A stretch of DNA of 64,000 nt from Gallionella sp. (lineage in GTDB: Bacteria; Pseudomonadota; Gammaproteobacteria; Burkholderiales; Gallionellaceae): positions 62,001 to 126,000 of the forward strand of contig JAUXOL010000021.1 in NCBI GenBank assembly GCA_030682375.1. The letters are read 5' to 3'. The stretch's first letter is position 1, and the number at the start of each line of letters is the position of its first letter. A model generated the notes under the pieces. That model saw only the letters and a list, made by a program, of their open reading frames with translations. It was not told where the DNA came from and did no database searches. Made by a program: the position numbers and the translations under genes. Of this stretch, positions 2,069 through 3,489 are shown piece by piece.

Positions 2069-3202
2069 ATGTCAAAAAAAGATTATTACGAAGTGCTGGG
2101 CGTCAACCGCGACGCTTCGGACGATGAGATCAAGAAGGCTTATCGCAAGCTGGCGATGAAGCACCACCCCGACCGCAATCCGGATAATCCGAAAGCGGAG
2201 GAACACTTCAAGGAAGCCAAGGAAGCCTACGAGACGCTGTCCGACGGGCAGAAGCGCGCGGCCTACGACCAGTATGGTCACGCGGCATTCGAGGCGGGCG
2301 GCATGGGCGGCGGCAGTCCGTTCGGCGCCGGTGGCGCGGCAGGCGGGTTCGATTTCTCCGACATCTTCGGCGACATCTTCGGCGGAGCTCGCGGCGGCGC
2401 GGGGCGCAGCAATGTGCATCGCGGCGCCGCCCTGCGCTACAACCTGGAGATCACGCTGGAACAGGCCGCACGCGGCACCGAGACGCAGATCCGCGTACCG
2501 ACCATGGCCGAGTGCGACACCTGCCACGGCTCCGGCGCGAAACCCGGCACCACCCCGACCACCTGCTCCACCTGTGCCGGCCACGGCCAGGTGCGCATGC
2601 AACAAGGTTTCTTCTCGATCCAGCAGACCTGCCCGCGCTGCCATGGCAGCGGCAAGCAGATCAACTCGCCTTGCGGAAGCTGCCAGGGTGCGGGGCGCAT
2701 CAAGCAGCACAAGACGCTTGCGGTGAAGATCCCGGCCGGCGTGGACAACGACGACCGCATCCGGCTCTCCGGCGAAGGCGAGCATGGCGTCAACGGCGGC
2801 CCCGCCGGCGACCTGTATGTGGTCATCCACATCAAGCCGCATGCCGTGTTCCAGCGCGACCACAACGACCTGCACTGCGAGATGCCGATCAGTTTCGCCA
2901 CCGCGGCGCTGGGCGGCGAGATCGAGATCCCCACGCTGGATGGCAAGGCTCTCATCAAGATTCCCGCAGAAACGCAAAGCGGCAGACAGTTCCGCCTGCG
3001 CGGCAAGGGCATCAAAGGCGTGCGCAGCAGTAGCCACGGCGACCTGCACTGCCACGTGATCGTGGAGACCCCGGTCAACCTGACCGAACGCCAGAAGGAA
3101 CTGCTGCGTGAGTTCGAGGCGATCAATGATGCGGACAGCGGTCACCACAACCCGCGTGCCAAGTCCTGGATGGACAAGGTCAAGGACTTCTTCGCTCAAT
3201 AA
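2069..3202 (+). CDS. dnaJ: Chaperone protein DnaJ (Hsp40)
   Basis: This 377-residue type I J-protein stimulates DnaK ATPase and delivers substrates to it. The J-domain spans about residues 1-70, with HPD visible in [13 protein letters not shown] Gly/Phe-rich segment ([13 protein letters not shown]) follows. The zinc-finger region at about 148-222 has four CxxCxGxG-like repeats: [24 protein letters not shown] and CGSCQGAG. The C-terminal substrate-binding domains end in [10 protein letters not shown]. The start is placed at the ATG at 2069, just after the hairpin repeat. The last 27 bases of the gene recur twice in the 205 bases downstream (see the repeat entry), which is not typical of dnaJ. 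Confidence 0.98.
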
Positions 3203-3425
3203 TCGAGTTCCTTGACCTTGCGGTGAAGACTAACTTGCGCAGCAAGTTAAGGGCGCAAGCCCGGTCCTAGCCATAAGGTGAAAGACTTTTTCGCACAGTA
3301 GTGCGAAAAATCTTTCACCTTACGGTGGAGGCTAACCTGCTTGCAGGTTAAGCAGCTCAACGGGCTGCGGCCGGAACCACAAGGTCAAGGACTTCTTCGC
3401 TCAATAAGCCGAGAAATCACCTTGT
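3174..3425. repeat. Array of three dnaJ 3'-end copies with paired hairpins
   Basis: The dnaJ terminal 27 bases (3176-3202, encoding KVKDFFAQ and a stop) recur at 3275-3301 and 3381-3407. The third copy is identical over 29 bases (3174-3202 against 3379-3407). The middle copy differs at six positions, all silent, including TAA to TAG. Each copy is the left arm of a hairpin. Copy 1 AAGGTCAAGGA pairs with TCCTTGACCTT (3209-3219). Copy 2 lies in a 55-base near-perfect palindrome (3271-3325) where AAGGTGAAAGA pairs with TCTTTCACCTT. Copy 3 has a decayed partner (ACCTTGT at 3419-3425). The intervening cores are related: each has GGTGRAGRCTAAC followed by a short hairpin (AACTTGC/GCAAGTT, then AACCTGC/GCAGGTT). 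No gene was found in this gap. Confidence 0.85.
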
Positions 3426-3450: not shown

Positions 3451-3489
3451 AAAAAGACCAGTTCCGCCTTCGGCCGAGCTGGTCTTTTT
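3451..3489. terminator. Bidirectional intrinsic terminator
   Basis: The arms AAAAAGACCAG (3451-3461) and CTGGTCTTTTT (3479-3489) are exact complements and enclose a GC-rich inner stem closed by TTCGG. A T-run follows in both orientations. It separates the convergent dnaKJ unit and the RND efflux operon and could terminate both. Confidence 0.9.

Follow-up and report, generated by a model that had tools for sequence, protein, structure and literature searches.

The question raised by this locus is why the end of dnaJ should be written three times in succession. In a 64,000-nt stretch of a Gallionella contig (hereafter, the window), the last 27 bases of the gene (3176-3202) recur, as an earlier note on this DNA had reported, at 3275-3301 (21/27 identical) and 3381-3407 (27/27); in a 29-nt register the three copies occupy 3174-3202, 3273-3301 and 3379-3407. 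The starts of the repeat are exact, lying at 3175, directly 3' of GA in dnaJ, and at 3274 and 3380, directly after the final A of a core element (Table 1). The six changes in the middle copy are all silent, including the one in the stop codon; in 200,000 trials with six random changes each, the peptide was kept once. The copy has no gene in front: a TAA at 3248-3250, as read from the sequence, shares its frame. Because all six changes are silent, the middle copy has the look of a once genuine gene end; its best match among 84 other dnaJ ends, from a Gallionella MAG (L024), is identical in 24/27 positions. Copies 1 and 3 show no difference from each other, unlike copy 2, and simple serial insertion does not account for such a pattern; it could possibly stem from exchange between strains or from conversion among the copies.

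The folding of 3174-3425 surpasses that of 200/200 dinucleotide shuffles (z = -9.06 as RNA, -9.09 as DNA). The earlier note assigned a hairpin to each copy, and this holds for copies 1 and 2, which have good inverted arms: fully complementary in unit 1, and at 90% for 3271-3290 with 3306-3325 in unit 2, where the changes of the copy are indeed matched in the right arm. The right arm of copy 3, by contrast, is decayed. Core 1 is 53 nt long and is built of a closing stem with a 3x3 loop and two hairpins, at 3231-3249 and 3251-3262. Between dnaK and dnaJ (1992-2068) lies a palindromic GTAGC-rich repeat that by eye is unrelated to the core.

Table 1. Features of the array at the end of dnaJ, in positions of the window
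Feature	Position	Strand	Remarks
dnaJ, with its 3' end as the target	2069..3202	+	NCBIfam DnaJ, 596 bits
Target motif GA/CAA (slash, junction)	3173..3177	+	g starts at 3175; codons GAC AAG; consensus GA/MAA
g copy 1, coding dnaJ end including stop TAA; left arm of hairpin 1	3175..3202	+	
a' of unit 1, 3175-3186 inverted, directly 5' of core 1	3209..3220	+	12/12 complementary
Core 1	3221..3273	+	71.2 bits, E 2.4e-17 for 3218-3276
g copy 2, dnaJ end carrying the six silent changes, without a gene in front	3274..3301	+	
a' of unit 2, inverted, closer to copy 2 than to copy 1	3302..3322	+	
Core 2 (57 nt)	3323..3379	+	68.2 bits, E 2.1e-16 for 3320-3382
g copy 3, a direct repeat that equals copy 1 exactly	3380..3407	+	
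Decayed inverted arm 3' of copy 3	about 3411..3424	+	by eye
Terminator-like hairpin and T run, 3' of the array	3451..3489	+	

Matches to the array outside dnaJ proved to be the same core behind the ends of other genes, with arms belonging to each gene in turn, and the array after dnaJ is thus the local case of an element dispersed in many copies among iron-oxidising bacteria and their kin. A covariance model was built from 12 cores (the seed), in which 90% of the cells are paired and 9/22 pairs show changes on both sides. Among 82 distinct non-seed matches these values are 95% and 17/22, and 0/500 shuffles showed covariation as high, with the caveat that the alignment was fitted to the structure of the model. 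The kinship of the two cores in the array is real, as the earlier note proposed. The search of the core that it called for returned 29 matches at E<=1 in the same genome (22 at 0.01 with stricter filters), as well as matches in relatives. The note would have dropped its mobile element had relatives carried no further copies; since the core is present elsewhere in this genome and in relatives, the idea stands. Its alternative, a structural RNA, is borne out in part, for the core, by covariation, but no Rfam family matched at gathering score: the best was MIR1120 with 30.8 bits against a gathering score of 86, and a second Rfam scan gave five matches, each below its gathering score.

The element has the layout X-[g]-[a']-CORE-[g]-Y, where a', directly 5' of the core, is an inverted copy of the initial 5-24 nt or so of the adjacent target, and g stands for direct copies of the target, variable in length (about 13-112 bp), that flank the element on both sides. 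By eye, the core consensus reads TTK-CGGC-GWA-GRC-(hairpin TAACTTGC..GCAAGTTA)-A-(variable hairpin) in its 5' part and GGYC-GWA-GCCA-MAA after the variable hairpin; the second hairpin is missing from some copies. Between sites (29 site clusters, anchored copies) the arms are 25% identical, which is the random level, and the cores 58%, whereas within a site the arm matches its own target at 81%, a figure raised by the selection of anchored copies. These three values indicate that the core is the element and that the arms belong to the target. Rather than being element sequence, the arms are inverted copies of whichever gene end is the host. What remains is an interspersed element that has no gene and conserves nothing but a structured core, some 40-60 nt in length.

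Several copies depart from this layout. In four cases (L276, L277, L280, L118) a near-constant small hairpin, CAACACGCCGCGNAGCGGCTTGTTG, replaces the target-derived arm, and one of these (L277) shows a duplication of the 5' half of a tRNA-Ser gene. A dispersed repeat of about 150 nt in the genome of the window (L119, L123, L124, L125, L126) carries, by eye, a core variant without the second hairpin. At another dnaJ 3' end (L030, about 2590-2750) one core seems, by eye, to sit inside another, the inner one being a covariance-model match on the minus strand.

The matches obtained with the model (237 in all, 218 after removal of duplicates, 217 of these with sufficient flanking sequence) were examined for a common register, defined by an arm identical in at least 8/10 positions and a direct copy identical in at least 7/10 that point to one upstream base. 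All three target copies share such a register in 97/217 cores, compared with 1/4340 (0.02%) shuffled flanks, a control that the selection of anchored copies does not inflate; the other 120/217 failed the test. The 97 anchored elements comprise 79 at primary sites and 18 within arrays. Across 29 site clusters the consensus is G (90%) and A (97%) before the junction, followed by A or C (93%), A (97%) and A (97%), that is, GA/MAA. The GA precedes the junction in 25/29 clusters and only 11/179 (6%) of the other MAA in the same flanks; MAA is partly built into the covariance model, GA is not. It is very probable that the copies form an element class as described here, with a GA/MAA site, a target-derived arm and direct target copies. 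The earlier proposal of a palindromic element that inserts at the dnaJ end and regenerates it is upheld, covariation included, except in its restriction to dnaJ: a dnaJ-specific element was rejected, as cores lie at many other genes. In one genome (G574), dnaJ itself is entered at a different point, GGCA/CAATCC.

At all 21 readable sense coding sites the insertion lies, by eye, in the codon phase GAM-AAN, against 69/100 sense occurrences of GAMAA in the genes of the window; sites in unplaceable genes were left out, and some of these (L183, L211, L286, L293) fall in a different phase by their longest open frame. These counts are no more than suggestive of a preferred phase. Target genes named by NCBIfam are dnaJ, argF, ccmE, smpB, accB, hypD, dapD, mpl, metK and an RND permease, several as fragments that score below the curated cut-off; others we take, from recognition of their sequences, to be proB, nrdA, nrdB, ftsW, murG, pstB, nuoD, ruvC, cysH, pheS and serS. 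In 54/97 anchored elements the junction is crossed by an open frame of 240 nt or more, 37 in sense and 17 in antisense by the longer frame, some of the antisense assignments being wrong (for example, dnaJ in L028). In 32/37 sense elements an in-frame stop lies before the arm or at most 1 nt into it; the remaining five include the cysH insertion and frames judged to be misassigned. Insertion sites are mostly at the 3' end of a gene with the stop codon kept, and the gene survives because the gene-side copy mostly carries that stop. Some copies adjoin tRNA genes. The RNase P RNA gene of the genome of the window (rnpB; contig C20, L115 1253-1731, minus strand; Rfam class A, 281.9 bits) contains a core-like match of 99 nt at 1501-1599.

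An open frame continues through the core in mpl, cysH and the RND permease, and for mpl a comparison with the empty site is available, the one clean presence/absence pair obtained. In one genome (G447), mpl carries an in-frame core insertion that adds 30 residues. A search with Mpl matched in 30/31 genomes, and in the 29 others the match falls into two pieces that skip the inserted stretch. The insertion is absent from four congeners (G600, G601, G603, G604) with proteins 95-97% identical. In the DNA of these four the empty site reads TATGAAAACGTGC.. (G600), and the occupied site of G447 reads TATGA/AAACATCCTGG..CCAGGATGTTT/core/AAACGTGC. The first and second direct copies (g1 and g2) already differ in G447, though the congeners are without the insertion. 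In-frame read-through of the element also occurs in what is presumably cysH, in the genome of the window and in G011. By eye, CysH of five further genomes of the genus (L377, L378, L379, L381, L386) has ..GVSA at or close to its C-terminus, and these residues resemble the beginning of the element. Including a further one (L375), six CysH C-termini seem by eye to be element-made (..GVSA or longer), and domestication of element sequence as the C-terminus of this protein is a possible reading.

Within the genus, the covariance-model search found the core in 28/37 genomes, and in 7/24 relatives outside it. Among sampled genomes of the order, the core is present in 62/200 genomes and 39/108 genera at 1e-6. 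In a sample of the class it was found in 1/370 genomes, that of the window itself, and in none of the 369 others, with 14 candidates scored per genome, a setting at which the window's own genome still gave 10 matches; of 20 others among the genomes listed, four are inside the order and 16 outside. One family has up to 68 matches per genome (G611). At least 13 of the matches in G611 lie inside a MITE-like repeat; thirteen identical cores (L354-L366) share a repeat of about 230 bp with inverted ends CTAGTACGCCAACCCATAAG. In G056, identical cores (L265-L270) are likewise located within a MITE-like repeat of about 200 bp.

Sites with a core at a particular gene, labelled by sequence pattern, number nine, and eight of them occur in more than one family. 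At such multi-family sites, 52 elements have another family for comparison. The downstream direct copy is closer to the end of its own gene than to those of other families in 43/52 (72% versus 60%), and the arm in 52/52 (91% versus 72%, the former value being raised by selection). Because the fit to the own gene end is the better one, the copies must have arisen, or been renewed, once the families had separated. Against this, same-site cores within a family are more alike (0.743) than those at different known sites (0.643), so that many sites are inherited; across families the excess at the same site is small (0.671 versus 0.645). When the arm and g2 are each compared with an identical stretch of g1, the arm agrees better in 61/97 elements, equally well in 27 and less well in 9. 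Since the arm resembles the gene more than g2 does, the hairpin seems to be kept or corrected after insertion. A donor flank is not supported as the source of the first bases of g2: in 52 elements the identity of g1 and g2 peaks beside the core and falls outward. By score, the order within arrays is mixed, with the newest unit nearest the gene in some and the reverse in others.

The best overall explanation, to which we give a probability of roughly 70%, is an element consisting of the core alone, with its arm copied from the target by snap-back synthesis and its direct copies made by duplication of the target. A break or nick at GA/MAA would expose, on the opposite strand, a 3' end reading ...TTK. 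Pairing of TTK with MAA would then prime synthesis of the core on an older copy with a 3' flank that also starts with MAA, the template being RNA or single-stranded DNA. The new strand may then fold back and copy some 10-25 nt of its own primer strand, giving the inverted arm; a fold-back at this step is suggested by the complementarity of the two core ends (GGC with GCC). Filling-in of a staggered second break would duplicate the target, and later insertions at the same place would push the old gene end outwards to form arrays. Snap-back copying as the source of the inverted arm is, taken by itself, about an even bet. The copying enzyme may be a host polymerase. Two candidate movers were examined and set aside. 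Genes of the Y1 (RAYT) family occur in 42/61 genomes and do not track core copies; at 1e-5 no match to Y1 (PF01797) was found in G056, G019, G025, G021 and G036, which hold 36, 22, 17, 11 and 9 cores. Reverse transcriptases of the RVT_1 type likewise show no link and are missing from several copy-rich genomes: at 1e-5 there was no match in G056, G026 and G012 (99-100% complete) or in G005, G011, G021, G025, G031 and G033 (66-88% complete).

This failure of either gene family to track the copies would equally be expected if template switching of the MMBIR kind during replication did all the work, a stalled nascent strand jumping at an MAA microhomology to an existing core, copying it, snapping back on itself and returning without any dedicated enzyme, the core spreading as a good trap for switching strands. 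The variable lengths of g and a' agree with such a process, as does the occurrence of MAA in the target and at either flank of the core, although MAA is partly built into the model. The near-invariant G and A before the junction nevertheless look enzyme-made, and a process available to any bacterium would hardly be expected to be confined, as this one seems to be, to a single order; we regard switching alone as rather unlikely. It is the enzyme-free form of the preferred explanation, and the odds given to the two overlap and do not sum to one. A more distant view is that of an old, vertically inherited RNA element at 3' ends, a hairpin and core selected for mRNA stability or processing, in which the arm follows the coding strand through compensatory change and recent mobility plays no part. 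It accounts for the greater likeness of same-site cores within families, for arms that remain paired while the direct copy decays and, by eye, for the element-like cysH remnants common to several genomes of the genus. G-U pairs also outnumber A-C in hairpins 2 and 3 (80 to 26), in counts biased by the model, as are those over the whole core (139 to 84) and the inner closing stem (32 to 31).

Inheritance of this kind is hard to reconcile with the in-frame mpl insertion not present in congeners, with the different entry point in dnaJ of G574, or with direct copies that are closer to their own gene end in 43/52 cases. Nor would a 3'-end RNA be expected in antisense at 5' ends, of genes taken to be ruvC and nuoD, as a core-like match inside rnpB or beside tRNA genes, and we consider this view distinctly improbable. 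Still less probable is an ordinary MITE or IS200/REP-type element that depends on a transposase encoded elsewhere. In its favour, MITE-like repeats with inverted ends do carry some copies along (G611 and G056), and Y1 genes are present in most of the genomes searched; against it, the arms are not conserved between sites, the direct copies range between about 13 and 112 bp in length, and the five core-rich genomes named above lack a match to Y1, the transposase family searched.

Core-only copying with target-derived ends resembles several known systems in part. In R2, a eukaryotic retroelement with a structured template, target-primed insertion yields 5' junctions with an inverted copy of nearby target through snap-back, as a low-frequency product (PMC11331408); here such junctions would be the rule. 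The variable target duplications and exact 3' junction are those of a target-primed retroelement, whereas several copy-rich genomes have no RVT_1 match. REP and REPIN elements, moved by RAYT transposases, are likewise short hairpin DNA, gene-less and present in many copies, and REPs have a conserved palindrome with a fixed foot tetranucleotide. The present core has conserved paired parts; the unconserved arms, long target duplication and lack of a link to Y1 set it apart. Fungal mitochondria harbour mobile double-hairpin elements that spread without a known enzyme and share the two-hairpin form; we know of neither target-copied arms nor a GA/MAA site in them. The target duplication of MITEs is short and of fixed length, and here it is longer and variable; fixed terminal inverted repeats, which mark all copies of a MITE, are lacking, the arms being 25% identical over 29 clusters of anchored copies. 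Being non-autonomous and duplicating the target are traits shared with MITEs (PMC10969869). The Rickettsia palindromic elements, about 150 bp long and in ten families, are small palindromes inserted in frame inside genes (PMC10969869), as here in mpl, cysH and the RND permease; most anchored copies here lie at gene ends instead, and the passages of that source on these elements mention no target-copied arms.

A limited search of open-access titles and the beginnings of abstracts returned no description of such an element, and none of target-mirroring arms for any bacterial mobile element. Because the definitions of MITE, REP and retroelement each fail on a point that was tested, we rate the element, with caution, as categorically new. 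A tentative reading, to which we lend somewhat less than even odds, is that of a new class of self-spreading bacterial DNA with no gene and no fixed ends, of which only the core is copied and the ends are rebuilt at each site by snap-back on the target, possibly by host polymerases, at a 5-nt site GA/MAA in codon phase GAM-AAN.

To our knowledge, known mobile elements carry their own ends. Because the ends are here copied from the target, the family would escape any search that looks for conserved terminal repeats, and yet it is present in 62/200 sampled genomes of the order. Its many natural junctions, each lying beside the source from which it was copied, would make a record of strand-switching. 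Remodelling of proteins also seems to occur, as an inserted peptide in Mpl and, by eye, as new C-termini in CysH.
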